In this document: positions 603-56,367 of the stretch, one piece after another
How the letters are laid out: each line of letters opens with the position of its first letter
Position numbering within the stretch: position 1 is the first letter of the stretch
Source: a virus
Length of the DNA: 64,000 nucleotides
Reading direction: 5' to 3' (one strand)
Virus record (IMG/VR): IMGVR_UViG_3300024262_006558
Span: 310,001-374,000 of that record
Translations under genes and position numbers: made by a program
Notes under the pieces: model-generated
Database searches by the model: none
Seen by the model: only the letters and a program-made list of their open reading frames with translations
What the model was told of the DNA's origin: nothing

Positions 603-1266
603 CTTTGTTTATTTGATTTAACATGTAATCGATAAGTCTGTCAGCTTCATCTTCAAGATCTTTGAAGTTATACTCTGAATTTTGCTCGCATATCACTTCA
701 ACAAACTTACTAAAAATATTTGAATTAAACCACATTATTTGGTTTAATTGCTTAATGTCTGGGTTTGAAATTAAACAAGATTTAATTGAAAAATATGTTA
801 CAAGTAGCTCCTCTTCAGCTTCTATGAAATCCATCTCTTCTTGAGTTAAGTCTTCATTTATGGTATGAAACACTTCTCTATTCATTCTTTTAGGGTGCAT
901 AGTGCTATGGCCTAATTCATGAAACATGAGTTGATAATACATTAAAGGGTTTGAAAAAAACCCTTTAGATAAAGTGTGTATCTTGTCATGTTTGGGATGA
1001 TATATAGGATCTTCATAATCTCCAGACATATAAATTATTTTAGGTTTGCCTGACCAATTATCTATTAAGTTTTCTAGAGTTTGATTGGGTTTAAAAGTTT
1101 CTTTACGTTTATTGCTAAATCTTAAAAATACACCGCAACTACCAGTTAAGTTCTTTTTAAACCAACTGAAAATAACTCTTATAAAATAAGGTGTCTTCAC
1201 AGTTTTTCTATGAAGACGTATTAATTGTAAAGTTATAGATATGTTAGGATCAAAATTATTTATCAT
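565..1266 (-). CDS. Zincin-type metallopeptidase (polyvalent-protein/ArdC-like)
   Basis: Carries a clear gluzincin-type motif, FHELGHSTMHPKRMNRE, at about residues 115-131: an HExxH helix followed by a basic NRE segment, then a Glu-rich helix (EAEEELLVTYFSIK) that can supply the third zinc ligand. This arrangement matches the metallopeptidase domain found in phage polyvalent proteins and in ArdC anti-restriction proteins. The roughly 110-residue N-terminal part (KIIYMSGDYEDPIYHPKHDKI) also fits that family. It probably acts in the host cytoplasm on an unknown protein; an anti-restriction or take-over role is inference. It overlaps both neighbours by a few bases. Confidence 0.7.
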   Translation of the reverse strand: MINNFDPNISITLQLIRLHRKTVKTPYFIRVIFSWFKKNLTGSCGVFLRFSNKRKETFKPNQTLENLIDNWSGKPKIIYMSGDYEDPIYHPKHDKIHTLSKGFFSNPLMYYQLMFHELGHSTMHPKRMNREVFHTINEDLTQEEMDFIEAEEELLVTYFSIKSCLISNPDIKQLNQIMWFNSNIFSKFVEVICEQNSEYNFKDLEDEADRLIDYMLNQINKDEKTNYNSYESV

Positions 1267-1846
1267 ATTTATTATTTAATTTATGACCTAAAACTGCCAC
1301 GAATATACACATAACCTCTACCGCTACAAAATCTCTAAAACCATTTCTTGCAGATATGTTTTTTGTATTTTTTATAACTCCTTCTGTAACATTTTGATTG
1401 CCGCTTGCATACTTGGTGATAACTTCAATATTATGTTCTCCATCAACGTTAACTACTTTAATCATTGCTTTTGCTAATACCTTTTTATCTAATCTTCCAT
1501 AAATAGATACATAGGCTTTAGCAAACTCTATATCTTCTTCTGGCCAAGGTTCAGCATATCCAGTAGTAGATATCCCATAGTCTGATTTCATTTTGTCAGA
1601 TATACCTTTAGACATTTCATCAGCAACCCTTTCACTTACACAATTTACCTCTTTTGCATGTAAATAATTTACACCTAAAATGTTTACTTTATGAGTTAAA
1701 TTGTATGCAGTAATACCTCCTTCAAAGAAACTTGATGATCCCGATATACTAGCAAACGCGTCCTGAAGTTTACCTGCAGTAATACTTTCCGCAACAGCTA
1801 CAGTAGCCCCTTCTAAAATTAATAACTTCTTTATGGAATCAATCAT
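1256..1846 (-). CDS. pncC: CinA C-terminal/PncC-like NMN amidohydrolase
   Basis: The protein aligns by eye with the CinA C-terminal domain: TVAVAESITAGKLQDAFAS, then SGSSSFFEGGITAYN, VNILGV, VSERVADEMSKG and GISTTGYAEP. Established members (PncC) hydrolyse nicotinamide mononucleotide to nicotinic acid mononucleotide and ammonia in the NAD+ salvage cycle. The serine and glycine-rich segments expected around the active site are present. At 196 aa it is the stand-alone C-terminal domain with no CinA N-terminal part, plus a tail of about 35 residues. Its presence with two nicotinamidases and a PRPP synthetase elsewhere in the window supports an NAD+ role. The substrate is inferred. Confidence 0.82.
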   Translation of the reverse strand: MIDSIKKLLILEGATVAVAESITAGKLQDAFASISGSSSFFEGGITAYNLTHKVNILGVNYLHAKEVNCVSERVADEMSKGISDKMKSDYGISTTGYAEPWPEEDIEFAKAYVSIYGRLDKKVLAKAMIKVVNVDGEHNIEVITKYASGNQNVTEGVIKNTKNISARNGFRDFVAVEVMCIFVAVLGHKLNNKYDK

Positions 1847-24624: not shown

Positions 24625-26183
24625 AATAATACATTTTTAATTCTAAATATTGTTTCATCTGATCCTATTAATTCCATAATTGGAAATAATTCAGGTCCGC
24701 CAGTTTCTTGTGTTATAATATACCTTAATGGTTTTAACACATCACCAAACTTCACACCAAGGTCATCACAAGTAATCTTTAAGTAATTCTTTGTTTGAGC
24801 AGTTGGGACCGTTGTATAGTCTTCATAAAAATCAGTAAGAACCTCTACAACATTATCAGTCAATTGCTTTTTAAGAATGCTCCAATCATAATCTTCTTTA
24901 TTAAGTGGAAGGAATAAATACTGAGATTTTGGCATCAGATCAGTTATAAACTCTACTCGATCCTTAAGGAGATCGCAAGCTTTAGTAGCGTATACTTCAT
25001 TAAGCCTGGATAATGTAAAGTGAGGCTTATAAACCTCACCCCAACTTTCAACCTCATATTTCCAGTCTTTCAATAAAGTTTCAGCTAATACACTTGAATC
25101 AGTTTGGCGAATATACTTTCCATTCATCCAAGTAATCTTTTCATTGTCATAGCGAATACCTGCTTTGTTAACTCTATCCATAGAGAATGCATTTACCAAT
25201 TCTTCAAAGGTAAAAATCTCTTGATCGTTGCCAGGGTTCCACCCTAACATCGCCATAAAATTTACTACAGCATCTTTATCATAACCTCCCTCTTTATAAC
25301 CTAAACATGTAATTTGTTGTTTCTTTTTATCGTCATACACTTGACATTGAAAAGGATAGATAGGAAAACCTAATCTATGAGCCGTTCTCTTACTTAATTT
25401 ACCTTTACCATCAGGGTTTAAAACTAATGGCAAGTGGGCAAATTCAGGAATATCCCACCCTAAAGCTTCGTACAACATAATATGTAATGGAGTGGATGGT
25501 AACCACTCTTCCCCTCTTATCACATGAGATATCTTCATAAGATGATCATCTATGACAGCAGCTAAGTGATACGTTGGAACACCATCAGATTTCATAAGCA
25601 CTTTATCATCCACTTCATTAGAATTGAATGTGACTTTATCTCTGACCATGTCAGTAAATGTAATTTCTTTATCTTTTGTAACTTTAAATCTTATTACGTA
25701 AGACGCGCCAGAAGAAATTGCTTTTTTAACATCGCTTTCCCCCATTGTAAGAGAATTAGACATCAAGTCTCTAGTGTTATGATCATATTTAGGCATAGGA
25801 TTAATATCCGTTTTAAGATCTTCTCTCATAGCATTCAATGCCGCAGGAGTATCAAAAGCGTAATAAGCATGTCCAGATTTGATTAACTCTTGAACATATA
25901 CCTCATATAACTCCAACCTCTCAGATTGTATATATGGACCATCAAGGCCGCCTATGCCTGGACCTTCATCAAACTCTATACCGCACCAATCCATAGATTT
26001 CTTGATATATTCTTGAGCTCCTTCTACGAGCCTTGAACTATCTGTATCTTCTATTCTGAGTATTAATTCACCACCATATTTAGCTGCGAACAAATAGTTG
26101 TAAAGGGCTGTTCTTATATTACCACAATGTATTGGACCTGTCGGGCTTGGAGCAAATCTAGTTCTAATGCGTTTTTCTTCCAT
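24606..26183 (-). CDS. gltX: Glutamyl-tRNA synthetase, Bacteroidota-like
   Basis: Full-length class I GluRS (525 aa). The HIGH-type signature is FAPSPTGPIHCGN at residues 10-22 and the KMSKS-type signature is GKLSKR near residue 261. The Rossmann core has LRIEDTDSSR, VIRGEEWLPS and GVPTYHLAAVIDDH. After KLSKR an insert with LGFPIYPFQ and LGYKEGGYDKDAVVNFMAML matches the form seen in Bacteroidota enzymes. It charges tRNA(Glu) with Glu. The gene follows a GIY-YIG homing endonuclease inserted antisense upstream, beyond which lies a 14-codon ghost of another gltX start. A TATTTTTG promoter-like box lies within the 80-base gap. Confidence 0.93.
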   Translation of the reverse strand: MEEKRIRTRFAPSPTGPIHCGNIRTALYNYLFAAKYGGELILRIEDTDSSRLVEGAQEYIKKSMDWCGIEFDEGPGIGGLDGPYIQSERLELYEVYVQELIKSGHAYYAFDTPAALNAMREDLKTDINPMPKYDHNTRDLMSNSLTMGESDVKKAISSGASYVIRFKVTKDKEITFTDMVRDKVTFNSNEVDDKVLMKSDGVPTYHLAAVIDDHLMKISHVIRGEEWLPSTPLHIMLYEALGWDIPEFAHLPLVLNPDGKGKLSKRTAHRLGFPIYPFQCQVYDDKKKQQITCLGYKEGGYDKDAVVNFMAMLGWNPGNDQEIFTFEELVNAFSMDRVNKAGIRYDNEKITWMNGKYIRQTDSSVLAETLLKDWKYEVESWGEVYKPHFTLSRLNEVYATKACDLLKDRVEFITDLMPKSQYLFLPLNKEDYDWSILKKQLTDNVVEVLTDFYEDYTTVPTAQTKNYLKITCDDLGVKFGDVLKPLRYIITQETGGPELFPIMELIGSDETIFRIKNVLLWLKEQ

Positions 26184-26263: not shown

Positions 26264-27217
26264 ATGAAAGATAAAATAAAAATATACCAATTATCAAGTT
26301 CTAGGAACCCTGAAAATGTGAGATATATTGGTAAAACTTCAAATAGCATAAAGTGTAGATTGCAAAAACACTTAAGTAATTTAAAAGGAGATACAACTTA
26401 TAAAGGGAACTGGATAAGAAAAGAAATAAGTGATGGGTTTCATATAATTATAAAAAGTATTTATATCGTTTTAGAAAATGAGAACTGGCAAGATGTGGAA
26501 ATAAAACTTATTTCTGAATACAAAAAAAAAGGTTATAAATTGACAAACTTAACCCCAGGAGGAGAAGGGATGCATGGAAAAGATAATCCTTTCTATAATA
26601 AATCACACACTGAAGAATCTAAGCAAAAGTTGAGAATATCACAACCTTCAAGAAAGGAAGTGATTCAATATAATAAAACAGGTAAAATAATTAATAAATA
26701 TGATTCAATAGCACAAGCTTCAAAAGAATGCAAAATACCTATATCATCCATTTCTAATGTATGCAAAATAAAAAAGAAATATAAGACGGCTGGAGGTTAT
26801 GTTTGGAGATTTAAAGGTGATTCTTTTTCTTTAGAATATGAAAATCCAGCCAAAAATTTAAGAAAGAAGGTGGATCAATATAATAAAAAAGGTGAGTTAA
26901 TTGCAACGTATAATTCAGTTTCAAAAGCTTGTGATATAACCAGTATACCTTCTGGCAATATTTCTAGATGCTGCAATAAAAACCTTAAAACTGCTGGTGG
27001 ATATGTATGGAGATTTGAAAATGACCTTTTCGAAAAACCTTCTGTAAGGAAGGGTTCCAAAAATATCATTCAATTTGACGTAGATGGAAATAAAATTATG
27101 GAATACAATTCTATATCAGATGCTGTCAAAAAAACTGGAATTAATTATTCAGGAATATACCATTGTGCTAACGGTAAGGTTAAAACTATAAAAGGATATA
27201 TTTTTAAGTTTAAATAA
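26264..27217 (+). CDS. GIY-YIG homing endonuclease with NUMOD repeats
   Basis: N-terminal GIY-YIG domain (IYQLSSSRNPENVRYIGKT, then a catalytic Arg/His/Glu region with CRLQKHLSN and EIKLISEYKKKGYKLTN). A NUMOD3-like motif follows (GMHGKDNPFYNKSHTEESK), then three NUMOD1-type DNA-binding repeats of the form QYNKxGxxIxxYxSxxxAxK, each closed by GGYVWRF or GYIFKF. This is typical of free-standing phage homing enzymes. It is antisense to gltX, and its stop lies in a perfect 38-bp palindrome whose other strand ends the gltX ghost. Confidence 0.9.
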   Translation: MKDKIKIYQLSSSRNPENVRYIGKTSNSIKCRLQKHLSNLKGDTTYKGNWIRKEISDGFHIIIKSIYIVLENENWQDVEIKLISEYKKKGYKLTNLTPGGEGMHGKDNPFYNKSHTEESKQKLRISQPSRKEVIQYNKTGKIINKYDSIAQASKECKIPISSISNVCKIKKKYKTAGGYVWRFKGDSFSLEYENPAKNLRKKVDQYNKKGELIATYNSVSKACDITSIPSGNISRCCNKNLKTAGGYVWRFENDLFEKPSVRKGSKNIIQFDVDGNKIMEYNSISDAVKKTGINYSGIYHCANGKVKTIKGYIFKFK

Positions 27218-27243
27218 AAATTTATAAATTTTTATTTAAACTT
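27206..27243. repeat. Perfect 38-bp palindrome at the endonuclease 3' end
   Basis: Two 19-base arms (starting AAGTTTAAATAAAAATTTA) with no loop. It contains the TAA of the endonuclease on the top strand and the TAA of the truncated gltX ghost on the bottom strand, both reading Lys-Phe-Lys-stop. It could also act as a bidirectional terminator. Confidence 0.85.
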
Positions 27244-27285
27244 ACCTGTTGGCGAAGGCGCATATCTTACTCTTACTTTATTCAT
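27232..27285 (-). pseudogene. gltX: Ghost of a second gltX 5' end (17 codons)
   Basis: From ATG 27285 the frame reads MNKVRVRYAPSPTG, the canonical GluRS N-terminus up to the residue before the HIGH-type motif, then KFK and stop supplied by the palindrome. It differs from the intact gltX start in both protein and silent codon positions (for example GCGCCTTCGCCAACAGGT against GCTCCAAGCCCGACAGGT), so it is not a simple duplication. It keeps its own phage-type promoter upstream. I read it as the original gltX start, displaced by endonuclease insertion. Confidence 0.8.
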
Positions 27286-27289
27286 AATT

Positions 27290-27318
27290 ATATAACGAAA
27301 TTATAATCATTTTGTTGC
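27290..27318 (-). promoter_or_regulatory. Phage promoter family member before the gltX ghost
   Basis: Leftward GCAACAAAAT, then TCGTTATAT with 22 positions from G to C. It now drives only the 17-codon ghost and whatever lies antisense to the endonuclease. Confidence 0.6.
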
Positions 27319-27372
27319 TTGACTTATTAAATGATTATGATTAAATTCTTATAAAGATACAAAATCTATGCC

Positions 27373-28092
27373 ATGAGAAAAAGATTTTACATAAAACCTG
27401 ACTTAAAACTTTTCTTAGACCAAGATCCGCTTAGGTTTTCCAGAAGTCAAATAACAGATTTAATTGAAAACCACTTCAATATATATAGCAGTAGATTTGG
27501 TAAAAACATTCCATTCAAACTAAATAATAATCAGAAACAAATTATTAAATCTGTTTCTGAAAACAAGATAACTGTTATTTCTAAAACTAGACAATTAGGC
27601 GTTTCTACAGTTATGCAATCAATTTTAACTTTGTTAATGGCTGATGCAGATGTTACTGTTTATTATATTTGTCATAATAAACAGTCTGCTAAATCTCGTA
27701 AACAATCGATGATATATTTACTTGAATGCTTGAAAGAGTTTGAACTTCAATACAAATCTCCTGACAACCCTTCTTCATTTGATATTATAAAAGAAACTGA
27801 AAATTCTTATACTTTATCAAACTTTAGCAAAATAAAGTTCACAACTTACGATCCTAACCTTTTTAGAGGAAGTAATGCTATGCATGTTTATTTTGATGAA
27901 TGTTTACCTAACAATGTAGCTGATGCTATGATTATGTTAGGGCCAATTACGAATGCGATTAAAGGTCATAGAATTATTATATCAAACCCTACAAGTGAAG
28001 CTGAATACATTTCTCAATCTTTGAGAAACTTAAGGCATCATTTTTTAAATATACCTAGAGGTGAATACCATTTATCTCCAGCCACTTACTAG
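27373..28092 (+). CDS. Terminase-large-subunit-like ATPase domain, no nuclease domain
   Basis: TerL-type ATPase core: FKLNNNQKQIIKSVSENK adenine-binding region, Walker A VISKTRQLGVSTVMQ near residue 75, Walker B MHVYFDEC near 176, and coupling motif IIISNPTSEAE. It ends at residue 239, before the RNase H-like nuclease domain expected in a TerL of 450-600 aa. It may be a split TerL half, a free-standing ATPase, or a remnant. The N-terminus MRKRFYIKP carries the MRKxFY tag seen on nine other proteins here, eight of them in the array at the right end. Confidence 0.72.
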   Translation: MRKRFYIKPDLKLFLDQDPLRFSRSQITDLIENHFNIYSSRFGKNIPFKLNNNQKQIIKSVSENKITVISKTRQLGVSTVMQSILTLLMADADVTVYYICHNKQSAKSRKQSMIYLLECLKEFELQYKSPDNPSSFDIIKETENSYTLSNFSKIKFTTYDPNLFRGSNAMHVYFDECLPNNVADAMIMLGPITNAIKGHRIIISNPTSEAEYISQSLRNLRHHFLNIPRGEYHLSPATY

Positions 28093-41256: not shown

Positions 41257-42237
41257 TTACATCTCTTCTATTTTATCTAAAATAGTTTCAGCAATTGACC
41301 TAACCTCATAAGGTAGTTTGTTATCAAATACACTGTACGCCATTGGGTGCGTATCAGTCACGGTAACATGATCAATACCTCCACTATCAATAATTCTAGC
41401 TAAAGAATTCTGAGGGAAAATACCATGAGTGGCAATTGCATATACATGTTTAGCTCCAGCTTCTTTGTATGCTTTACCCGCATTTATAAGACTTCCCCCA
41501 GTACGAATCATGTCATCATATATAACAACATTCTTACCCTCAACGTCTCCGTACACCGCCTTAACTTCAGTCTCTGTACCAGATATCCTTTTCTTCATTA
41601 TATAAGCGGCATCAACACCCATCTCGCCAGCAAGCTTTTCAATTTGCTTAGCCCTACCTGAATCAGTTGACGCGAACACAAAATCATTACCACCTATTTT
41701 CTGAGCCGCATCCTTTATGATATGATCACATCTAATTTGTTTAACAACAGTGCTTCCTTCGAAATAATGAGTTAATCCATCAACATGAAGATCAAACAAG
41801 TAAATAGTGTTTCTGTTTGATTGAGGTATACAAGAAAGTATTCTGGCCCTTGTTTTTGCTTTAACTACTTCTCCATCTTTTACTGCCCTCTCCATTGTAG
41901 AGTAACTGAAATAAGGAATGAATAAAGTAAGTGTATGAGCTCCATTCTTTACGGCAGCACATGCAAGATCATATATTTCCATAAGATCCATATCATGAGG
42001 AGTCCCTCCTATAATAATAACATCTTTGTCATCTACATTAGTTGCTAATCTATGATAAGTTTCCATATCAGGAAATTCTTTCACTTCTACAGTTCCTTCA
42101 ACTAGTGAATCAAACAATTTACTTGCTTCAGGATTCTCGTCAATAATTGGAGCATATACCTCATCTCTAGTTTGAAGAACTAACTCTAAAAGAGAAGCAT
42201 AGTTTTTTGTGCTGAATATAATTTTTTGTCTTTCCAT
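41257..42237 (-). CDS. prs: Ribose-phosphate pyrophosphokinase (PRPP synthetase) family
   Basis: Type I PRPP synthetase family protein, 326 aa. The metal/ATP loop is in FDLHVDGLTHYFEG and the PRPP-binding loop is VVIYDDMIRTGGSL, with the flexible loop KKRISGTETEVKAVYG and the FVFASTDSGRAKQIEKLA segment. Standard members make PRPP from ribose-5-phosphate and ATP. Some phage members instead pyrophosphorylate ADP-ribose as part of an NAD+ rebuilding pathway, and this copy may be such an enzyme. Sequence alone does not decide. Other NAD-linked genes lie in this window, but no obvious partner transferase was seen. Confidence 0.82.
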   Translation of the reverse strand: MERQKIIFSTKNYASLLELVLQTRDEVYAPIIDENPEASKLFDSLVEGTVEVKEFPDMETYHRLATNVDDKDVIIIGGTPHDMDLMEIYDLACAAVKNGAHTLTLFIPYFSYSTMERAVKDGEVVKAKTRARILSCIPQSNRNTIYLFDLHVDGLTHYFEGSTVVKQIRCDHIIKDAAQKIGGNDFVFASTDSGRAKQIEKLAGEMGVDAAYIMKKRISGTETEVKAVYGDVEGKNVVIYDDMIRTGGSLINAGKAYKEAGAKHVYAIATHGIFPQNSLARIIDSGGIDHVTVTDTHPMAYSVFDNKLPYEVRSIAETILDKIEEM

Positions 42238-42822: not shown

Positions 42823-43023
42823 TTATATTACTAAAGTTTTCTTAATTTCTTCATGAGTTGAAATTACCTCTTCCTTGGAAGGGCGTCTATTTCCTTTTTC
42901 ACATAAAATCCTTCTTACCATTGAAGCTTCGATGGATATTAACTTATCCATCAAGTCTTCATTAGTATTGTCTTGCAATAATGCAACATATATTTTTTCC
43001 CACTTTTGTCTTAGTTTTTTCAT
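42823..43023 (-). CDS. Hypothetical protein, 66 aa
   Basis: Basic helical peptide (MKKLRQKWEKIYVALLQ) with a central RRILCEKGNRRPSKEEV. Not recognised. The start overlaps the last base of the DNA ligase gene, so it is translated in the same operon. Confidence 0.5.
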   Translation of the reverse strand: MKKLRQKWEKIYVALLQDNTNEDLMDKLISIEASMVRRILCEKGNRRPSKEEVISTHEEIKKTLVI

Positions 43024-45071
43024 TAGAATAAACTTAATTGTTGTGATTGAGGCTCTTCATCCTCCTCTTCTGGCTCATCTGCAGGAGCAGCAACGATTGC
43101 GTCAAAAGGGCCATACTTAGCTTCAAAATCTTTAGCATTCATTAAATTAGTTCCATAATTTCTAGCCTTAGACAATTTACCAGAGTTACCACTTACATCA
43201 AGCGCTACAAGTATAGTAGTTTTCTTAGAAAGAGAACTCCCTAACTTTCCTCCTTTATCTTCAACTGCAGCTTCCCATTCAGGGTTTCTAAATCCTGTGA
43301 AGACAATTATTTCACCTTCTAATTCATCAGAACTTGCTTGTTGTTTCTGAGCTATAGTAATAGGAAGATCCTTTACAAACTCTTCATAATCAGAAAGTCC
43401 ATTCAAATAGATGTCTACGCTTTTCTCAGCAAATCCACCAATCTTCAATAAAGCTTTCTTATCTAAAGCTACACCTTCTACCAATTCAAGCTTCTTACTT
43501 CCTAATCCTTCAAAGAATCCAGAAGCATGTTGTAGTTTGGCCAAAGTAACACCTTTCATTTTACTATGAATGCTTTTGTAGATAAGATCAGCTTTACGTT
43601 TTCCGAATCTATCAATAGACTCCATGTCTTTCTGAGACATTTTTAATATCTTAGGTACACTATCATACCCTGCATCAAAGAACGCTTTAATATTACCCTC
43701 TCCAACACTATCAACATCAAGTATTTCAAAGAATGAAATAGCTTTTTGTAATAACTGATCCGAACAACCGCTATGGTTCGTACACATCAATTCAATATTA
43801 GTTTCGTTCCAAGTTAATTCAGTACCACAACTAGGGCAATGAGTAGGAGTGTCTATATTAATATGATTACGAGTTTCAGCAAACTCTGCCACAGCCTTTT
43901 TATCAGTTGCTGGAGGAAGAGAAATTCCATCTATAGCTATCACTTGAGGTATTACCATACCACTTCTACGTACAGTTATTTCTTCACCAACAGCAAGGCC
44001 CATATTAATTAAGTAACGCTCATTGATACCTGTAACATTTTTTACCATGGCACCATCTAACGATACTCCAATAACTTCAATAATAGGTTTTAGATAACCT
44101 TGCTTAGAAATATTTCTTTGTAATTTTTTTATCCTTGTGTCTTTTCTTTGCTCAAAATTATTTTTATAAGCTTTTGCAAAATGAGGATTATTGCTAGTAT
44201 CTCTTCCTAACTCTTCTCTGAGATCATGGTCATTTACGTCAATGATAAGACCATCAATTTCATACTCAATACACCATTGATCAAATAAAGAAGCTAAATA
44301 TTCTTCAGTCATTTCATCAACCGTAGCAACTTTATATGGAACTTGAACTTTGTTCATTTTGTTCAAACGATCCAACTGTTCTTCTTTAGATAAAGTAGTT
44401 TCTTTGTTTTTGTATTCCATACCATAACGGATATAGTCTACATCAACAAGTATAATATTAGGTTTGTCATCATTAAATTTTCCTCCAACCATATTACGGC
44501 CATTAGCAAACCCTTTCTCCTCACCTAATGCTTCATGAGAGTATCTACTATCAAAAGTAGTCCTCTTCATTATAGCTTCTCCGAAACTATATATTGGAAC
44601 TGGCTTAGGATATATGTCACCCATTTTATCAAAGTGAGAATCAGAACATTGACCTTCAACACCATCACCTCTAGTCCAAGCTTGATTAGTTTCTTCATCT
44701 ACACAAAGAGAAATTCCATCATATTTAGGAGTAAGTACAAACTTAGTACCTTTTGGAATCTTCTTAAGACGTAACCAATCTAATACATCTTGATATGACT
44801 TCATTTTATTCATTGAAGCCATTGTAATTGGAAGTTTAGATTTTCTATCACCATCAACTGTAAAACCTATTTGATGTGGATTAAACTCTAATGTTTCATC
44901 TCCTGGAGCTATCTTTCTCATCAGACCTTGTAGCTGCTCAATTTCTTCAAGCAATACATCAAATTCAGGATCAGACAAATCCGACTTACCTAATTTTCTG
45001 TAGTCGTAATTACTTTTGATTGCTTTGGCAATTTTTTCCTGAAGTTTATTGCTAATAGTATAATAATCCAT
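43023..45071 (-). CDS. ligA: NAD+-dependent DNA ligase
   Basis: Full LigA: an N-terminal Ia-like region (LSDPEFDVLLEEIEQLQ), adenylation motif LTPKYDGISLC, GLIIDVNDHDLREELG and the OB fold (GLAVGEEITVRRSGMVIPQ), a four-Cys zinc finger (HCPSCGTELTW through CTNHSGC), HhH segment (IDRFGKRKADLIYK) and a C-terminal BRCT domain (GEIIVFTGFRNPEWEA). Start taken at ATG 45071; a TTG lies nine bases upstream. It seals nicks using NAD+, linking replication to the cell's NAD+ pool. Confidence 0.93.
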   Translation of the reverse strand: MDYYTISNKLQEKIAKAIKSNYDYRKLGKSDLSDPEFDVLLEEIEQLQGLMRKIAPGDETLEFNPHQIGFTVDGDRKSKLPITMASMNKMKSYQDVLDWLRLKKIPKGTKFVLTPKYDGISLCVDEETNQAWTRGDGVEGQCSDSHFDKMGDIYPKPVPIYSFGEAIMKRTTFDSRYSHEALGEEKGFANGRNMVGGKFNDDKPNIILVDVDYIRYGMEYKNKETTLSKEEQLDRLNKMNKVQVPYKVATVDEMTEEYLASLFDQWCIEYEIDGLIIDVNDHDLREELGRDTSNNPHFAKAYKNNFEQRKDTRIKKLQRNISKQGYLKPIIEVIGVSLDGAMVKNVTGINERYLINMGLAVGEEITVRRSGMVIPQVIAIDGISLPPATDKKAVAEFAETRNHINIDTPTHCPSCGTELTWNETNIELMCTNHSGCSDQLLQKAISFFEILDVDSVGEGNIKAFFDAGYDSVPKILKMSQKDMESIDRFGKRKADLIYKSIHSKMKGVTLAKLQHASGFFEGLGSKKLELVEGVALDKKALLKIGGFAEKSVDIYLNGLSDYEEFVKDLPITIAQKQQASSDELEGEIIVFTGFRNPEWEAAVEDKGGKLGSSLSKKTTILVALDVSGNSGKLSKARNYGTNLMNAKDFEAKYGPFDAIVAAPADEPEEEDEEPQSQQLSLF

Positions 45072-45090
45072 GTCTTCCAATTGTTTATGT

Positions 45091-46028: not shown

Positions 46029-46033
46029 CTATT
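46013..46033 (-). terminator. Hairpin at the end of the thg1 gene, overlapping a promoter
   Basis: AATAGGCAA / TTGCCTATT inverted repeat with a three-base loop, followed leftward by ATTTTCG. It covers the Thg1 stop and the GCAACA box of the next promoter, so it may be a terminator, an operator, or both. Confidence 0.55.
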
Positions 46034-46814
46034 CTTCTAATTGAAATAATTTATTTTCATACACAGGAACTATGCTTGATAAGAATGTCCAATCCTTAGA
46101 GAATATTGGAGGCTCCAACGCTTCCCATCTAGACCTTTTAACTCCAGGCTCTTTTTCATATTCTTTTCTAGCGATCACGGTCCCTCTTTTAAAACGAACC
46201 TCATAATCATTCCAATTAATCCCTTTCTCAAGCATTAACTTATCTTGAATCTGACCCCCATTCTTGCCTTGCAACTCCTTGTGAGAGAACTGAGCTTGAC
46301 CCGCCATTGAAACTGAGTTTCTTGTACAGTCTTGCTGTCTCCAAAGAAAGTAGTTTAATACATCATTTGGATTTGGTATTAGAAAAGCTCTAGAATCAAA
46401 GTTAGCCCAAATAAAAGAGTCTAACTTGAAACCTTCCTCGGAAATAGCTCTCTTAAGTCTAAGGTTGTTAAAGATAGTTGTTGCTAATGAAGCAGCTATA
46501 GAATTGATCTTATCCACTCTACCATCATATAATTGTTGACTCTTAATGTTCTCAAAATCAGTGAACAATAAAGATATCTCATCAGATTGAGTATATGCCA
46601 TTCTACAACATTGCAGTTCAGAACATAACTGTCTAGCCGTCTCAATCATATCGTCAGATAAACCAGAATCAAATGGCTTTTCAACCTTTTTAGTGTACTT
46701 TGAAAATTTTTTCCCGTCTAATCTAACTAAAACATAGCTGCGAGGAGACAGTTTAATAGTGGAGGCTGATTCGTATTGTTTTATACGTTCACCTAATGTT
46801 ATTTCTTTACTCAT
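46029..46814 (-). CDS. thg1: tRNA(His) guanylyltransferase / Thg1-like 3'-5' polymerase
   Basis: Thg1 family: RLDGKKFSKYTKKVEKPFD (first metal-site motif), then AYTQSDEISLLFTDF (second), and SMAGQAQFSHKELQGKNG-type downstream core. Length 261 aa is standard. Thg1-like proteins add nucleotides in the 3'-5' direction; in bacteria they repair tRNA 5' ends. It fits the RNA-repair group in this window (RNA ligases, Pnkp, RlaP, Tpt1). It overlaps the radical SAM gene by eight bases. Confidence 0.9.
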   Translation of the reverse strand: MSKEITLGERIKQYESASTIKLSPRSYVLVRLDGKKFSKYTKKVEKPFDSGLSDDMIETARQLCSELQCCRMAYTQSDEISLLFTDFENIKSQQLYDGRVDKINSIAASLATTIFNNLRLKRAISEEGFKLDSFIWANFDSRAFLIPNPNDVLNYFLWRQQDCTRNSVSMAGQAQFSHKELQGKNGGQIQDKLMLEKGINWNDYEVRFKRGTVIARKEYEKEPGVKRSRWEALEPPIFSKDWTFLSSIVPVYENKLFQLEE

Positions 46815-49772: not shown

Positions 49773-50270
49773 TTATTTTATTAATTCTTCTTTTTTGATT
49801 CCTAGAAACTCTTGATAGATGTTTTCTGTCCTATCTTGGCATATTCCCTCCCACACTAGATAGAAACTACGACCTTCGGAATAAATCATTGAAACCGTTG
49901 GTTTACCTATTTTTGTGATATGTGTAAATTTATGGTGCCTACTATTATATGTCAATATAAGAGAATCTTTTATATTAATCAAGCTTTCAGTGTTTTCGTC
50001 TTTCACCCAATCATCTGGATATAACTCAAACCTATCTCTCATCTGACTTATTCCTGGTCGTAAATAATCTAGCGTATTATGTTTAAAAGTTAGAATAGAA
50101 ACTGTAACTACTATTACAACTGTTAAAGCTGTATACAGTTTTCTTTTATCCTCATATAACTGTTCTCTTTTAGTGTATAGGAACTCCCAAGTTCCCCATA
50201 ATGTAAATGCACCTATGGCTAATCCACCAAAAATACAATATAACATGAAACTATCAAAACTAATAATCAT
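49773..50270 (-). CDS. Two-helix membrane protein, paralogue of next gene
   Basis: Two N-terminal hydrophobic helices (MLYCIFGGLAIGAFTLWG; YTALTVVIVVTVSILTF) and a soluble tail containing RPGISQMRDRFELYPDDW and an ending ITKIGKPTVSMIYSEGRSF...EELIK. The next gene upstream ends in the same EELIK and has RPAVESVYIEFRENPENW, so the pair seems to derive from a duplication. Function unknown. Confidence 0.55.
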   Translation of the reverse strand: MIISFDSFMLYCIFGGLAIGAFTLWGTWEFLYTKREQLYEDKRKLYTALTVVIVVTVSILTFKHNTLDYLRPGISQMRDRFELYPDDWVKDENTESLINIKDSLILTYNSRHHKFTHITKIGKPTVSMIYSEGRSFYLVWEGICQDRTENIYQEFLGIKKEELIK

Positions 50271-50277
50271 AATACTT

Positions 50278-50766
50278 TTATTTTATTAACTCTTCTACTT
50301 TAGAGTTTTCTTCAAACTCTTTATATCTATTTTTATCGGCATCTTCACTCCTCTTGTATATTGCTAATTTAAGAAAAGAATCTTCTATTTCAGTAAGTTT
50401 AAATGAATTTTTGCCATATGGAGCCATCCAATCTCTATCTTTATTAAACCTTAAACCATCACTCTTTCTAATCCAAACATCTCCAGATAGACTCCAATTT
50501 TCTGGATTCTCTCTAAATTCTATATAAACCGATTCCACTGCTGGTCTCATTTTTATGTGATATGTTTCTATCCATAAATAAAATAATGATACTATAACAA
50601 AAGAAATCACTGGAGCCATTATAAAAATGTTTTCACTTACCCAATCACATGCTTCATTATTATAAGAAGTTTTACCATTATCGAAAATTCCATGTCTAAT
50701 TATAGCCGCTAATACAACAAACAAAACCACGCAAAAGCATATACAAAATTCTTGCAAACCTATCAT
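50278..50766 (-). CDS. Two-helix membrane protein, paralogue of preceding gene
   Basis: Same layout as its downstream neighbour: two hydrophobic helices (FCICFCVVLFVVLAAII; IFIMAPVISFVIVSLFYLW), then a tail with RPAVESVYIEFRENPENW and the C-terminus VEELIK. They lie between a nicotinamidase and the kinase gene of the TerY-P-like cluster, so a membrane sensor for that system is possible but unproven. Confidence 0.55.
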   Translation of the reverse strand: MIGLQEFCICFCVVLFVVLAAIIRHGIFDNGKTSYNNEACDWVSENIFIMAPVISFVIVSLFYLWIETYHIKMRPAVESVYIEFRENPENWSLSGDVWIRKSDGLRFNKDRDWMAPYGKNSFKLTEIEDSFLKLAIYKRSEDADKNRYKEFEENSKVEELIK

Positions 50767-50767: not shown

Positions 50768-52462
50768 CTATTTTTTATTTAAAAGATAAACATCATCTTC
50801 CCACGCTATGATTCCAGCGTTAGTTACATACAAAGATGTGGAATCTGAAGTAAAACTGCAAGAGATTGAAGCTATTTCTTGAAAATCTGATGTTCTAATA
50901 ACTTTAATACCTCCATCATTCGGTTCAAATATCATACCCGCAGCCTTTCCTCCGAACTCATACATTCTCTTAACTTCATTTGGAGAAAATACAACCTTCA
51001 TCCCATCTATTTTGAAATACTTGTATTTCAACTCTGGGCCTTCTATATATTGAGCTATTCCTAAATTAGCTTTTTGGAAAACTAATTTTACATTATCCTG
51101 AAACGCTACATTATTCATAGCTTTGCCTGAATTATATAACAACCTCTTTTTGCCTCCAAGATTTTGCATATACGCTCCACGATTGATAAATCCTTTTGAG
51201 AAAACATCTTGAACTTCTACTCTCAATCTATCATTAGATGGCTGAAAAATCTCATCAAGATACACGTTGGTCATTTTATCATCCCCAATCATAACCAACA
51301 TATTTTCATATTGATTAAATGAAGGTTCATCATCAAAAGTGAAGTTTTTTATCTTAGTTCTTTCTTTTTCCGATTTGATATAATATAAACTATTCCCTCT
51401 CTTTCCATAAATAAATTTATCTGTAAGGAAGATGAATTCATATTCATCTCTAGAAAGAGCAAATTTCTGTCTTACATGCCCTTTGTTGGAGCTGTCATAA
51501 ATGATGTAATTTTCATCGGTAGCTATATAGCCTTGATTCTCCATAAAAAAGACATTGTTCACCTCTAGTGAACTAGTAATGCAGCTCACGTTTACATCTT
51601 TGTCAGAGAACTGTGCAGGCTTTATTTTTTTAACTTTCTTAGTAGCAGCTACTGGAGTTCCAGCTAATGACATGAGAAATCTGTCACCTTCACAGTATAA
51701 CAAATCATATTGATTGGTTAAAGATACATCCGTTATAGGCTCATACGCTTTGGGTATTTTTATATCGGGATCTTTTTTAAATACGGGGAGCTTCAACTTC
51801 ATACGATCCTCAATTTTCTTATGCACTTTATGCACTCCTTTAAATGGGTGTATGTGCGTAAGCATGTTGAATATGAGGACAGACAACGCGAAGAAGTCGC
51901 TAGTTTCAGCAACTGTTCCTCCATGTAAATAATCTCTTATGTCTTGCAGTAAAATTCCAGAGTGAGGATGGTTTGGAGTCTGATAAGAATCCACATCAAT
52001 CAGTCTTAAATCACCTTTGTTATTGATCATAACATTGAACTGGTTTAGATCTCCTATAACCACTTCATTCTTATGAGCGTATTCAACGGATTTAATTAAT
52101 GCTTCACCAATCTTTCTCTTTATCTTGTCAGTGATATTGTTTCTTCCGCAAAAGTTCTTGGCAAATATACTAGACAAAGGAAAGAATCCTTGCCCTAAAT
52201 ACTCCATGGTAAACCCAACGATCTGGTCGTTCTGATTCATTAACAGCTCTCTAGGGGACACGAATAGAGTCTGATCTAAACCACTAAGGTAATCAAACTG
52301 ATCTTCCGTTATAGGGGTTATATTGTCATGATATATTTTCGCAACAATACTTGAATCGCTCTTGATAGATATGATTCTACCTTCCCCTCCTCTATGTATC
52401 TCATCTACCTCGTCAATCGCATATCGATTCCCTAAAGGTGTCTTTAACTGAAGTAATGCCAT
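50768..52462 (-). CDS. Protein kinase of TerY-P type with C-terminal propeller-like region
   Basis: Ser/Thr kinase-like core: glycine loop RGGEGRI (residues 24-30), Lys42 in VAKIYHD, catalytic loop IGDLNQFNVMIN (136-147) where HRD is changed to GDLN, and metal motif LIDVDSY (154-160) where DFG is changed to DVD. These alterations are like those of the kinase in TerY-P systems. The last 260 residues are beta-rich repeats (for example YIATDENYIIYDSS, KFIYGKRGNSLYYIKS), perhaps a propeller. PP2C and vWA genes follow upstream. Confidence 0.78.
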   Translation of the reverse strand: MALLQLKTPLGNRYAIDEVDEIHRGGEGRIISIKSDSSIVAKIYHDNITPITEDQFDYLSGLDQTLFVSPRELLMNQNDQIVGFTMEYLGQGFFPLSSIFAKNFCGRNNITDKIKRKIGEALIKSVEYAHKNEVVIGDLNQFNVMINNKGDLRLIDVDSYQTPNHPHSGILLQDIRDYLHGGTVAETSDFFALSVLIFNMLTHIHPFKGVHKVHKKIEDRMKLKLPVFKKDPDIKIPKAYEPITDVSLTNQYDLLYCEGDRFLMSLAGTPVAATKKVKKIKPAQFSDKDVNVSCITSSLEVNNVFFMENQGYIATDENYIIYDSSNKGHVRQKFALSRDEYEFIFLTDKFIYGKRGNSLYYIKSEKERTKIKNFTFDDEPSFNQYENMLVMIGDDKMTNVYLDEIFQPSNDRLRVEVQDVFSKGFINRGAYMQNLGGKKRLLYNSGKAMNNVAFQDNVKLVFQKANLGIAQYIEGPELKYKYFKIDGMKVVFSPNEVKRMYEFGGKAAGMIFEPNDGGIKVIRTSDFQEIASISCSFTSDSTSLYVTNAGIIAWEDDVYLLNKK

Positions 52463-52466
52463 ACTA

Positions 52467-53243
52467 TTAAAATTCTAAGTGTAATTGATCATCAGATATT
52501 ACAATTCTGTAAATACCCAAATCATCTCTATGATTCCATCCTTTATTTCTAAGGATGTTTACTTTTCTCTCCAACATTGTTGGGTTACCTAAAAACCTTA
52601 TGTCTTCTGAAAGATAAGCGGCTGGATCCTCTATATCTGGAGAAACGCCATGGTTAGGAACATATGAAGTAATCCCATCTGTAGCAATAGTCACGTCTCT
52701 AATTTGAGGCACAGTGAAGTCTATTACATTCTTTGCAAATCTAGGAGTTTCTACTATTCCATCATACCAATTCTCAAAAGAAGACAGGTCATTAATATCT
52801 CCCAAATGATATGCAATATAATTGGGAGCATTACTTTGCTCTATTTCATGGCGTTGACCATTAATTGAAACAAAACCATCTCCAATAACAGCGATGTAAC
52901 CACTATTATCTCTCACATCTCTTACTAGAAGTATGATAGTCGCTAGAAGATCGTTAGTGTTTAATCCTAAATCTTCTTTAACTCTTTTGAGTCTACAAGA
53001 AAATGAGTAAAGCAATTGTTTCGAAAGTTCTTTTGGAGTTTCATCTCCAAGAACCATATGCTCTTTACAAGTGTTTTCAAATAATCTAGCAAATAAAGTA
53101 GAGGCAAAATGTGAATCTCTACCGCTTGAACAACCATCAAATACAGCGGATACAAAATACTGCCCCTCATAATCATGAAAGAAATTGAAATCTTCGCACC
53201 AATTTTTGTGATCGGCGCCTTGTTTTAACAAACTATATATCAT
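52467..53243 (-). CDS. PP2C-family protein phosphatase
   Basis: PP2C metal-binding motifs in order: KNWCEDFNFF, AVFDGCSSGRDS, GYIAVIGDGFVS, TIATDGITSYV and NHRDDLGIYRIV. It is 258 aa, a single catalytic domain. It removes phosphate from Ser/Thr. With the kinase directly downstream and the TerY-type vWA protein upstream it forms the three-gene set known as the TerY-P triad, a stress/phosphorylation module. Confidence 0.82.
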   Translation of the reverse strand: MIYSLLKQGADHKNWCEDFNFFHDYEGQYFVSAVFDGCSSGRDSHFASTLFARLFENTCKEHMVLGDETPKELSKQLLYSFSCRLKRVKEDLGLNTNDLLATIILLVRDVRDNSGYIAVIGDGFVSINGQRHEIEQSNAPNYIAYHLGDINDLSSFENWYDGIVETPRFAKNVIDFTVPQIRDVTIATDGITSYVPNHGVSPDIEDPAAYLSEDIRFLGNPTMLERKVNILRNKGWNHRDDLGIYRIVISDDQLHLEF

Positions 53244-53247
53244 TTAA

Positions 53248-53589
53248 TTATATTTGCGTAAATTCTGTGTCACTAAAATCAGCTGCTTCATATGGAGCAT
53301 AATAGAAAGAAAAGCTGAACGCTATCCCATAATCAATAAACTCACATACATTTTTTACACATCCATCAGATTTTTTATTCCAATCAGGAGTACTTACAGC
53401 TTTAAGTTTATACTTATCTTTCAAAGCAATATAAACATCGTGTAAATGATTATCTTCTGGTTCAGATTCGTCCTCGCCAGTTATATAATTAAGGAACTGT
53501 TCATGTAAACCAAGGTTGTGATTAACAACAAAAGTTTTAAAATTTATTCCTGAATCTTCAATGTCTTTTTTTATTTCTTCTAATGTCAT
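53248..53589 (-). CDS. Hypothetical acidic protein inside the TerY-P-like cluster
   Basis: I start it at ATG 53589 (MTLEEIKKDIEDSGINF) and not the TTG nine bases upstream. 113 residues, acidic, with a compact alpha/beta look (AIALKDKYKLKAVSTPDW, then AFSFSFYYAPYEAADF). No family recognised. It is the only extra gene between the PP2C and the vWA protein and is separated from the latter by a terminator. Confidence 0.5.
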   Translation of the reverse strand: MTLEEIKKDIEDSGINFKTFVVNHNLGLHEQFLNYITGEDESEPEDNHLHDVYIALKDKYKLKAVSTPDWNKKSDGCVKNVCEFIDYGIAFSFSFYYAPYEAADFSDTEFTQI

Positions 53590-53613
53590 GATTAACAATG
53601 TTTAAAGATAATA

Positions 53614-53635
53614 AAAAGGGGCTTAGGCCCCTTTT
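53614..53635 (-). terminator. Terminator after the vWA (TerY-like) gene
   Basis: AAAAGGGGC / GCCCCTTTT hairpin just after the vWA stop. Confidence 0.75.
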
Positions 53636-53637
53636 GA

Positions 53638-54381
53638 TTAGAAGTCTATATCTGGAATTCCTTGACCGCTTGATACGGATGAAATAGATTGAGAAATAAA
53701 CCCAATCATATCTCTGATATCTTTTGCGCTATTACCCATCTTAGCTAAGTGATGGATGCCCATATCTTGCTGAGCTCTAGTGAAGTCACCTTCATCCCCT
53801 AAACCAAAAAGGATAGTAGTGAAAGAGAATGCGCTACGCTCTTCAGCCGATAAAGCATCGATCTTTTGCTTAACAATATGAGCAGGGTTACGAGAAGAAT
53901 TATCATCTCCATCAGTAATGACGAAAACAAGAGTCTTCACATCAATACCAGCATCTTCCTGATCTTCTCTATAAGCAACAGCTTTATCAATCGCTGAAGC
54001 AACAGCATCATAAAGAGCCGTTGATCCCCCAAGACCACTTGCTCCAAAATCAACATCTTGTAAAGTATTGATTGGCTGGAACCCGTTTCTTACAAGAATG
54101 TTTTGAGGTTCAGAGAACTCAACAACGGATACAAACAAATTGTTTGCTACGTGTGAATTACCCATCTCTTGAACAAACTCATTATAAGCTTTGCTCATGT
54201 CCCCTAGCACTCCATGCATAGAGTAAGACTTATCAATTACGAATACCGCATTGATGATGTCGGTAACTTCGATATCATCAATATTAAAATTACCCGTAGC
54301 ATCGCCAAAGGTTACCCCTCCAAAATCGGGCGCATCATTCTGAGGCGCTACGCTTTGGACATTTTGTGTTTCATCTGCCAT
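53638..54381 (-). CDS. terY: TerY-like von Willebrand factor A protein
   Basis: vWA domain with an intact MIDAS: DKSYSM (residues 50-55; the DxSxS motif), a Thr in GLGGSTALYDAVAS and an Asp in VFVITDGDDNSSRN. An acidic, disordered N-terminal tail of about 40 residues precedes it. TerY proteins bind metal and act with a kinase and a PP2C phosphatase; both are encoded next to this gene. The set has been linked to tellurite and stress responses. A copy on a phage is unexpected. Confidence 0.82.
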   Translation of the reverse strand: MADETQNVQSVAPQNDAPDFGGVTFGDATGNFNIDDIEVTDIINAVFVIDKSYSMHGVLGDMSKAYNEFVQEMGNSHVANNLFVSVVEFSEPQNILVRNGFQPINTLQDVDFGASGLGGSTALYDAVASAIDKAVAYREDQEDAGIDVKTLVFVITDGDDNSSRNPAHIVKQKIDALSAEERSAFSFTTILFGLGDEGDFTRAQQDMGIHHLAKMGNSAKDIRDMIGFISQSISSVSSGQGIPDIDF

Positions 54382-54408: not shown

Positions 54409-55239
54409 TTAAACTTGCGTTTGAGAAGTTGACTTAACAGTCCTGCCTTCTAATGCATCATTCGTGTTAGAAAAACGAATGTTATTTTGTCTAGCTCGAT
54501 CATATATTGGATCAGCAAGAGTTTCAAACCCTGGAACAACACTCATAGCATCTTCCAAAATGATAAACTTGCTTGCTAAGTCTGGAGCTAAATCCATCGC
54601 TTGCTTAAGCGTATTAGCTACACAGTGAGACTCGGCCTCTCCAGCAAAATAAACGTTTTGGAATTTCTCCAAACTTCTAATAAGCTTTTGATTTAATTGA
54701 GTTGACTGTTCCCCTTGAACTTCAACGTTAGCCCTAAAAGCTCCGAAGTGTTCAACTAAAGGATATTCCCCTTTTTGTACATATTGTACGAATTTACCTG
54801 GAGAAGCATTTACCCATTGCGCTAAAGCGTCAGCTAAAGGTCCGTAGATTGCATGACCTTCAGTACCTCTGATACAGTGAGTAGGCCATATACAGTGAGG
54901 ATATTCCCCTTGATCTTCAAGATCAGCGATATACTTAACAACTTGAGGACCAAAAGCTTTTGGAGTCCAAGTTCCATTCTCGATATCTTCAGAAGTGATA
55001 ATTGTGAAAGGATTTGGACTGTTTCCATCTTTATCTTCCCAAAGAGTTGGGTGAGCAATGTCGTTAATGTGATGCGTGTCAAGCGTTACCGCTATAGCAT
55101 CAATAGTCTCAATGTTGTTGAGAATCCATTCAGCAAGACGTTCCATGTCTTTATCCGCTCCAGGTACATATAAGGACCCTTTTGGATCACAAAAATCTAC
55201 TTGAGGATCTATACAAAGTAATGCATTTTTAGTTGCCAT
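54409..55239 (-). CDS. pncA: Nicotinamidase-family hydrolase, second copy
   Basis: Close paralogue of the gene at 48842: LCIDPQVDFCDPKGSLYVPG (Asp), TLDTHHINDIAHPTLW (DxH metal site), WPTHCIRGTEGHAIYG, VQKGEYPLVEHFGAF (Lys) and AGEAESHCVANTLKQ (Cys). All triad positions are retained. It is 276 aa. Two such enzymes in one phage suggest either dose or different substrates. It is immediately upstream of the vWA gene. Confidence 0.83.
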   Translation of the reverse strand: MATKNALLCIDPQVDFCDPKGSLYVPGADKDMERLAEWILNNIETIDAIAVTLDTHHINDIAHPTLWEDKDGNSPNPFTIITSEDIENGTWTPKAFGPQVVKYIADLEDQGEYPHCIWPTHCIRGTEGHAIYGPLADALAQWVNASPGKFVQYVQKGEYPLVEHFGAFRANVEVQGEQSTQLNQKLIRSLEKFQNVYFAGEAESHCVANTLKQAMDLAPDLASKFIILEDAMSVVPGFETLADPIYDRARQNNIRFSNTNDALEGRTVKSTSQTQV

Positions 55240-55250: not shown

Positions 55251-55844
55251 TTAGTTTATGTAAAATTTCATTTCTTGTTCAGTGTCACAATTGTAACTTT
55301 TCAAATGCCCTTCTTCACCTTGCATGCCGATGGTGCAAAGAACATACTGAACACCTTCTCTGCCTTCATCTAATTGGGATAATTTGAATTTTTTTAAAAC
55401 ATCTTCACGATCGGAAATGTATGAATTACGCTGTATTTGTTGAGTAACAATAACTTCATACCCATCTTCTTCCTGAGAAATATTATAAAGGTCTTCATCT
55501 ATCTTACCTATAATTTCAAGATAGCTAAGATCATTTTCTGACCCATCTCCTAGAGTTAAATTACCTATACCATCAATAACAATAGAGTCATATCCTGGAT
55601 AATTTTTTAACTTCCTAATAATATCATTAACGCTAGATCCTAAATCCAACTCTACAATTTTTATGTTATTACCACCACTTAATAAATTATTACTATTAAG
55701 TAACATATCCATCCTATTGAGCACATCTTTCATTCTCCACTCAGACACAAAGAAAACAAAATTAGTTTCTGGTCTAGATATCATATGAGCAAGCAATGAA
55801 ATGTTATTACCACTCCCAACAGTTCCGCAAAATTTCTTATACAT
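55251..55844 (-). CDS. Possible RecA/DnaB-fold ATPase-like protein with worn Walker A
   Basis: Has the flow of a RecA-like domain: KFCGTVGSGNNISLLAHM where Walker A GxxGxGKT is expected, then DSIVIDGIGNL as a Walker B-like segment, and EVIVTQQIQRNSYISD as a sensor-like motif. The missing Lys/Thr in the first loop makes ATP hydrolysis doubtful. A degraded recombinase/helicase-like protein or a structural variant is possible. It overlaps the Tpt1 gene. Confidence 0.45.
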   Translation of the reverse strand: MYKKFCGTVGSGNNISLLAHMISRPETNFVFFVSEWRMKDVLNRMDMLLNSNNLLSGGNNIKIVELDLGSSVNDIIRKLKNYPGYDSIVIDGIGNLTLGDGSENDLSYLEIIGKIDEDLYNISQEEDGYEVIVTQQIQRNSYISDREDVLKKFKLSQLDEGREGVQYVLCTIGMQGEEGHLKSYNCDTEQEMKFYIN

Positions 55845-56367
55845 TTTTTATATATTTTAAAGGTACAAACTCCGTTAAATAAACTCCATTCTCAGAACGA
55901 TAAAACACATATCCATCGTTATGCATTCTCTTAGCTTCAATAGTTAATATTGAATGCTCTCCTTTACGAGATCCTACATTATCTGCAGTCTCTACATCTT
56001 CAGAAAGATGTACAGCATGTCGTTTCATTTTACTAATACCGTCTTCCATAATTAAAGGTACAGTTTTAGTTGCGGTCCCATGATATAGATCAAATGGAGG
56101 AATAACTGCCTCAAGTTGTAAATCTATATTTTCAACCGAGTGCCCTTGATTCGCTCTTATCTTAGATTTATCTTCACTGAAAGCGAATCTCTTTTTATTA
56201 TTTGTTTCAACGATTTCTTCTAATATCTCCATAGTTAACCCTTCAATCTTATCCAGTAGAAAAGACACATCGGCCCAACCATTTTTATCCAACTCTAAAC
56301 CAATAGCCTCTGGCTTATGTCTAAGTACTTTTGAAAGTAGTCTAGATGTATTGTTTTTGTTTCCCAT
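55837..56367 (-). CDS. kptA: RNA 2'-phosphotransferase (KptA/Tpt1)
   Basis: Tpt1 motifs in order: LLSKVLRHKPEAIGLELDKN (Arg-His), FAFSEDKSKIRANQGHSV (the RxNQGHS motif), DLYHGTATKT, RHAVHLSEDVETA and the final FYRSENGVYLTEFVP. Length 176 aa is normal. The enzyme moves an internal 2'-phosphate from RNA to NAD+, giving ADP-ribose 1'',2''-cyclic phosphate and nicotinamide, so it links RNA repair with NAD+ metabolism. It suits the other repair genes here. Confidence 0.92.
   Translation of the reverse strand: MGNKNNTSRLLSKVLRHKPEAIGLELDKNGWADVSFLLDKIEGLTMEILEEIVETNNKKRFAFSEDKSKIRANQGHSVENIDLQLEAVIPPFDLYHGTATKTVPLIMEDGISKMKRHAVHLSEDVETADNVGSRKGEHSILTIEAKRMHNDGYVFYRSENGVYLTEFVPLKYIKNV

Follow-up and report, generated by a model that had tools for sequence, protein, structure and literature searches.

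A conserved gene set of nicotinamidase, vWA protein, PP2C phosphatase and kinase in a giant phage, with a possible role in the control of NAD+ salvage

We analyzed a 64,000-nucleotide stretch of viral DNA (the window), which covers bases 310001-374000 of the 388,594-bp virus record IMGVR_UViG_3300024262_006558 (G000), and focused on a group of genes encoding, in this order, a nicotinamidase-like amidohydrolase, a von Willebrand factor A (vWA) protein, a protein phosphatase 2C (PP2C) and a kinase, hereafter the NVPK set (Table 1). Since a terminase (phrog_5989, E 1.6e-10) and a head-maturation protease (phrog_94, E 1.7e-36) are encoded in the window, the record is judged by its genes to be that of a giant-size phage. 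A first-pass annotation of this DNA had described the vWA, PP2C and kinase genes as a contiguous TerY-P-like triad flanked by two nicotinamidases and two membrane paralogues. The triad does lie where it had been placed, each member scoring over its Pfam cut-off, and its genes are neighbors on one strand, but a short open reading frame (ORF) of 116 amino acids (aa) and a terminator-like hairpin separate vWA from PP2C. Both nicotinamidases are real and have complete active-site residues, with scores below the Pfam and NCBIfam cut-offs. Two membrane proteins are likewise present, but their similarity is weak (25% over 97 aa, pairwise E 0.006).

Between 55239 and 48842, eight ORFs lie tightly packed on a single strand. 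Judging from this packing and the hairpin, two transcripts may be produced, one with nicotinamidase and vWA and the other running from the 116-aa ORF through PP2C, kinase and the membrane proteins to the second nicotinamidase. Terminator-like hairpins were more frequent between window positions 46000 and 60100 than in shuffles (14 versus 5.3 expected), and one of them directly follows the vWA gene; a promoter scan stayed at chance level (61 found versus 63.0 expected). The 116-aa ORF had no relative among the proteins compared between triad-bearing loci.

Table 1. Features of the NVPK locus and other genes of the same phage (window positions unless marked as record positions)
Feature	Position	Strand	Evidence
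Nicotinamidase-like amidohydrolase, 276 aa, first gene of the NVPK set	54409..55239	-	Best PDB match of profile: yeast Pnc1 2h0r, E 1e-16
vWA protein, complete MIDAS, 247 aa	53638..54381	-	Pfam VWA E 5.5e-7, over cut-off
Terminator-like GC hairpin with T-rich tail, between vWA and 116-aa ORF	53613..53635	-	Pattern match only
116-aa ORF between vWA and PP2C, outside the conserved set	53248..53598	-	Weak phrog_925 helix-turn-helix match, E 0.0059
PP2C-type phosphatase, 258 aa	52467..53243	-	Pfam PP2C_2 E 4.4e-14, over cut-off
Ser/Thr-type kinase (residues 1-265) fused to predicted beta-propeller (284-564)	50768..52462	-	Pkinase E 5.7e-10, over cut-off
Small probable membrane protein, directly 3' of kinase	50278..50766	-	Hydrophobic N-terminal part, by eye; no family match
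Small probable membrane protein, second of pair	49773..50270	-	Weak similarity to neighbor
Second nicotinamidase-like protein, 306 aa	48842..49762	-	42% identical to the 54409-55239 protein
PncC/CinA-type nicotinamide-nucleotide (NMN) amidohydrolase family protein	1256..1846	-	TIGR00199 92.6 bits vs 68.9 cut-off; PF02464 E 5.6e-28
Phosphoribosyl pyrophosphate (PRPP) synthetase (Prs), would supply NAPRT co-substrate	41257..42237	-	PF13793 E 2.4e-16; phrog_619 E 5.8e-32
NAD-dependent DNA ligase (consumes NAD, releases NMN)	43023..45080	-	phrog_3869 E 1.6e-97
Thg1 (tRNA-His guanylyltransferase)	46029-46814
KptA/Tpt1 (NAD-dependent RNA 2'-phosphotransferase)	55837-56367
NAPRT-like	record 207645-209162		NCBIfam E 5.6e-75, below equivalog cut-off
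Nudix gene, between NAPRT-like and NadE-like in the row	record 207.6-212.7 kb		TIGR00052, over cut-off
NadD, in the same gene row as NAPRT-like	record 207.6-212.7 kb		TIGR00482, over cut-off
NadE-like	record 210933-212747		NCBIfam E 1e-74, below cut-off

The four genes recur together in viruses. The whole triad was detected by tblastn in the huge-phage record LR756500.1 and in part in LR756511.1 and LR745208.1, and ORF comparison revealed a nicotinamidase near the triad in all three. A scan of viral contigs with six nicotinamidase queries contributed its best 80 of 126 loci; adding the window and four loci from before made 85, which fall into 62 clusters at 90% identity (the cluster counts ignore kinship beyond this level). 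The set was complete in 51 of the 62 clusters, nicotinamidase stood alone in 5 and the set was partial in 6. The strict order nicotinamidase, vWA, PP2C, kinase on the same strand was kept in 49 of the 51 complete loci; one exception (L051) is probably an ORF-start artefact, and the other (L074) is real. In a reverse scan with six kinase queries (50 loci, 43 clusters), which overlaps the former and is not an independent sample, 40 of 43 clusters were complete. Among the incomplete ones, L190 is the record of L041 and has its nicotinamidase just beyond the flank, L203 lies at a contig edge, and L225 has no detected vWA gene.

Given these proportions (51/62 and 40/43), we reject chance neighbors as an explanation. 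An origin of the cluster from trapped host DNA in the assembly, as raised earlier, is also unlikely, since copies of the module appear across numerous viral contigs and in three further huge-phage records. Phage hallmark genes were checked for the window's record only, and some short IMG/VR contigs may be misclassified. L008, which is counted among the 62 clusters, is an unverified 'Bacteriophage' fragment (MT837596) that may be of bacterial origin, as its nicotinamidase groups with a Lachnospiraceae chromosome locus (L166). The kinases of the phage NVPK loci are 17-36% identical to that of the window; blastn of the triad DNA against phages gave no match, and viral-contig scans with the window's kinase or vWA protein as single queries found none.

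The active sites are conserved across these homologues at the residues expected from the families to be catalytic. All 62 nicotinamidases share D11, D54, H56, H63, H121, K156 and C206, which in alignment with Pnc1 comprise the Asp-Lys-Cys triad and the metal-binding Asp/His/His. The metal ion-dependent adhesion site (MIDAS) noted earlier in the window's vWA protein is indeed complete (D50-x-S52-x-S54, T121, D157), and D50, S54, T121 and D157 are invariant in 55/55 vWA proteins, with position 52 being Ser in 50 and Thr in 5. In PP2C, D18, D36, G37, D122, D189 and D241 are invariant (53/53). The altered HRD/DFG motifs reported for the kinase are also real: the window's protein reads I-G-D138 and D156-V-D, with IGD..N and DVD in place of HRD..N and DFG. 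The catalytic Asp, the Asn and the metal Asp are nonetheless retained, and G25, G26, K42, H130, D138, N143 and D156 are invariant in all 52 phage kinases (G28 is Gly in 41 and Ala in 11). The kinase thus appears atypical in motif and active-looking, and the retained catalytic residues argue that it is not a pseudokinase.

Residues 1-265 of the kinase are predicted to adopt a kinase fold and align with Escherichia coli YegI (hhalign probability 98.3, E 2e-14). The C-terminal part (residues 284-564), modelled separately with a mean predicted local distance difference test score (pLDDT) of 79 and a predicted template modelling score (pTM) of 0.76, matched beta-propellers, with a Foldseek E of 1.2e-6 to Vps18 and VIA-align values of Z 13.9 and root mean square deviation 3.8-4.2 over 258 aligned residues; this model indicates that the C-terminal part is a beta-propeller. 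A zinc ribbon was not seen in the phage kinases, two CxxC motifs after residue 200 being present in 0/52 and one in 5/52. A Patescibacteria relative (L257) carries a zinc-ribbon-like CPKC...CPVC pair followed, by eye, by a propeller-like stretch. Judged by these motifs, the phage protein looks like a TerY-P-like kinase without the ribbon.

In bacteria, the set occurs beside genes of NAD (nicotinamide adenine dinucleotide) metabolism. A species-genome collection was scanned with the nicotinamidases, and the best 80 of 325 loci comprised 9 with all four genes, 66 with nicotinamidase alone and 5 partial ones. In five of these nine NVPK loci the nicotinamidase has NrtR next to it (the NrtR_WHD domain was tested in three), the repressor of NAD genes that responds to ADP-ribose; after the module, L156 also carries NAPRT, NadE and a NadM/NadR-like gene. 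Among the same best 80, the stand-alone nicotinamidase relatives (71 loci) are near NAPRT in 18, NrtR in 15 and NadE in 8 cases. Two loci (L089 and L090) adjoin, by eye, apparent ATP-synthase genes and are therefore chromosomal. On a 938-kb Lachnospiraceae contig, McrB/McrC and a UvrD-type helicase with zinc ribbons precede NVPK (L166 653-13836), which lies approximately 6 kb from the McrBC pair.

In surveys around these loci, a kinase match was found in 6 of 286 genomes of the phylum of L156, the centre included, and four of the five other loci have the order PP2C, kinase, nicotinamidase, vWA; NrtR is present in two of the five, NAPRT in two and NadE in one, and in L271 the nicotinamidase was seen as a fragment only. 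Since the partners stay together while their order differs, a functional bond is more plausible than a frozen neighborhood. In Lachnospiraceae, 104 of 250 genomes matched, nearly all weakly, and most of the 30 loci read had PP2C and neither vWA nor nicotinamidase within a short stretch, so that these weak matches are probably ordinary kinase/PP2C pairs. In Bacteroidia, 4 of 295 genomes matched, with a full match in the centre genome alone. A quick and unfinished nicotinamidase tree intermixed phage and bacterial copies and put the window's copy nearest to chromosomal copies of Bacteroidota, which is compatible with transfer between phages and hosts. A module-bearing contig from a metagenome-assembled genome of Lokiarchaeota (L109) may be misbinned phage; its nicotinamidase groups with phage copies and its genes are phage-like by eye.

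The phage of the window itself has nicotinamidase, NAPRT, NadD and NadE by sequence family, and by this assignment encodes the whole deamidating (Preiss-Handler) route from nicotinamide to NAD+. The NAPRT of this record was missed by a PF04095 search and was found by reading record positions 200-220 kb; a cpYpsA (SLOG) gene precedes it, and the whole run spans record positions 207149-212747. The SLOG and Nudix members of this run hint at ADP-ribose handling within the NAD operon. The PncC-type enzyme could recycle NMN from the NAD-dependent ligase of the phage. The window also holds KptA, a PARG-type macro protein and NADAR, and Thg1 and KptA place RNA-repair genes on both sides of the module.

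Neighboring genes were compared in 50 NVPK records (49 viral contigs and G000), which are locus representatives, many of them fragments and most with a complete module. After the four set genes, the commonest neighbor families were NadE-like (14 loci), NadM-like (13) and NAPRT (11), and over their whole length NadE occurs in 28 of the 50 records, NAPRT in 22 and the PF01467 adenylyltransferase fold in 25. With G000 included, 14 of the 28 records with NadE had it no more than 10 kb from the nicotinamidase (4.7 expected by random placement), as had 9 of the 23 with NAPRT (3.8 expected), these shuffles counting related records as independent. TerD (PF02342), the only Ter gene covered by this comparison, was found in 0/50 records.

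We favor, with moderate confidence, the explanation that the cluster works as a dedicated phosphorylation switch for NAD+ salvage, which probably restores NAD+ during infection. Gene identities, intact active sites, the four-gene set and the co-location with NAD genes and NrtR in bacteria are computed results, and it is from genomic context that we infer the NAD link and beyond it the phosphorylation target and purpose. NAD-consuming enzymes, NAD-depleting host defences among them, release nicotinamide, which the nicotinamidase would convert to nicotinic acid. From this, NAPRT, NadD and NadE, with PRPP from Prs, would rebuild NAD+ in this phage, and NMN may be recycled by the PncC-type enzyme. 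The kinase and PP2C would form an on/off pair, presumably antagonistic as an excerpt of PMC13232886 reports for YegI and PphC, with the vWA protein as a Mg2+-dependent adaptor holding enzymes and substrate and the beta-propeller as a docking or sensing part. The most likely target would be the nicotinamidase itself or another salvage enzyme. A fall of NAD+ during infection might switch the flux on, and the benefit would be resistance to NAD+ depletion.

Several observations weigh against this explanation. NrtR was not seen in the stretch examined at four of the nine bacterial NVPK loci, and NAPRT and NadE were found in only 22/50 (the divergent copy of G000 not counted) and 28/50 NVPK records. 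In the window's phage, the NAPRT-NadD-NadE genes lie 153-156 kb from the module, and the nicotinamidase, NAPRT and NadE assignments are below curated NCBIfam cut-offs. Furthermore, dCMP deaminase, taken as a control, is likewise overrepresented around the module (5/13 within 10 kb versus 1.5 expected, in shuffles with the same treatment of related records), indicating that part of the NadE and NAPRT proximity reflects general clustering of metabolic genes; the proximity of NAD genes, alone, is not specific evidence.

Other explanations have to be weighed against the salvage switch. Phages carry host-modifying kinases, such as T7 gp0.7, and with this precedent the triad could be a take-over device phosphorylating host proteins of transcription, translation or defence, the nicotinamidase being a merely co-inherited neighbor. 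PADLOC gave only general kinase matches at the locus, and its PD-T4-6 defence-kinase models hit the kinase domain (E 1.4e-9) as any such match would. We regard this explanation as unlikely, since the nicotinamidase accompanies the kinase in nearly all kinase-centred loci, even L190 having one just outside the flank, and the pairing holds despite the low identity of the phage kinases and in unrelated bacteria. A superinfection-excluding (anti-phage) or stress module of the TerY-P/STK_OB type, with the nicotinamidase as effector or sensor, would agree with the McrBC pair near the Lachnospiraceae locus and with an excerpt of PMC11090510, which reports that TerY-P triads occur with restriction systems and that one variant, with an OB fold, serves as an antiphage system. 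That system, too, is TerY-P-like and its kinase carries a further C-terminal domain, but the OB fold there differs from the predicted propeller of NVPK, and the STK_OB model matched our kinase weakly (E 0.0068), whereas the best matches of the C-terminal model were beta-propellers. With TerD missing and NAD enzymes as the commonest named recurrent neighbors, such a role seems distinctly unlikely. It is still less probable that the substrate of the amidohydrolase is a different amide, either a signal or some pyrazine-like metabolite, with the NAD link being secondary. Its scores below the nicotinamidase cut-offs and its length, 60-90 aa beyond the 213-position PncA model, would allow this, but the best solved relatives are nicotinamidases, catalytic triad and metal ligands are invariant, and stand-alone bacterial relatives lie near NAPRT, NrtR and NadE.

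The TerY-P triad, reportedly described by Anantharaman et al. in 2012, has the same three domain types as the phage module: vWA, PP2C and Ser/Thr kinase in one operon, with an intact MIDAS. As a description, the TerY-P-like triad on a phage in the first-pass annotation was right, the kinase being related to YegI and having in L257 a bacterial relative with a zinc-ribbon-like pair; the TerY-likeness of the vWA protein rests on its VWA family and complete MIDAS, its similarity to E. coli YegL being marginal. A canonical TerY-P system for metal or tellurite stress, or one subverting a host Ter system, as first proposed, is nevertheless unsupported and highly improbable. An excerpt of PMC11090510 describes the TerY-P kinase with a zinc ribbon, whereas the phage kinase has a predicted propeller in its place; TerD was absent from the NVPK records, and the constant partner is a nicotinamidase. 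The nicotinamidases, seen at first as mere flank, do lie on either side of the triad, but nicotinamidase is the constant fourth gene of the set. Thus, the module resembles TerY-P in its parts and, lacking the ribbon motifs, is by sequence not a member of TerY-P as defined.

E. coli YegL-PphC-YegI likewise consists of the three same protein kinds encoded adjacently, with kinase domains that align, and PphC is reported to dephosphorylate YegI in the excerpted text of PMC13232886. No nicotinamidase is among the annotated genes of that 20-kb stretch, however, and the C-terminus of YegI is unlike that of the phage kinase. Phage genes rebuilding NAD+ are known from reconstitution and salvage systems (NARP1 Adps/Namat; NadV/NadM/NadR), but NARP1 and NadV use nicotinamide directly, according to excerpts of PMC12774641 and PMC9503650, whereas here the deamidating nicotinamidase-NAPRT-NadD-NadE route is joined by a kinase/phosphatase switch. 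Excerpts of PMC12774641 describe NAD-depleting defences together with the NARP1 answer; the viral NAD gene survey PMC9503650 names NadV, NadM and NadR, and PncA, PncB, NadE, TerY and PP2C appear nowhere in its text. Bacterial NrtR-regulated operons for NAD salvage unite NrtR, nicotinamidase, NAPRT, NadE and an adenylyltransferase, as does L156, which differs in adding vWA, PP2C and kinase. No link of nicotinamidase to the vWA/PP2C/kinase triad was found in the open-licence PMC literature searched, although a mention in TerY-P, NrtR, NARP or YegI papers outside it is possible. What is new here is the bond of the triad with nicotinamidase and NAD salvage.

More broadly, and at somewhat less than an even chance, NVPK may be an undescribed post-translational control of NAD+ salvage in giant phages and bacteria, in which a dedicated nicotinamidase has its activity set by a propeller-bearing kinase, PP2C and a vWA adaptor, and by which giant phages switch on complete deamidating NAD+ rebuilding when defences deplete NAD+. 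Depleting NAD+ is a defence of central importance in bacteria, and the phage answers named in the cited excerpts rebuild NAD+ by nicotinamide-using enzymes. If the proposal is true, this widespread giant-phage module would add reversible signalling to the NAD+ arms race via the deamidating route, and the TerY-P-like and YegI-like triads, obscure in their signals and targets, would gain a concrete, testable pathway in phages and NrtR-bearing bacteria.

Elsewhere in the window, at 26264-28092, the terminase ORF (239 aa) looks short and adjoins, by eye, a homing-endonuclease-like ORF, so that the gene is possibly split or interrupted. Positions 22276-26183 contain PheS-like and GltX-like ORFs resembling aminoacyl-tRNA synthetases by eye, and the GltX-like one matches phrog_35649 and phrog_12136, both of unknown function.

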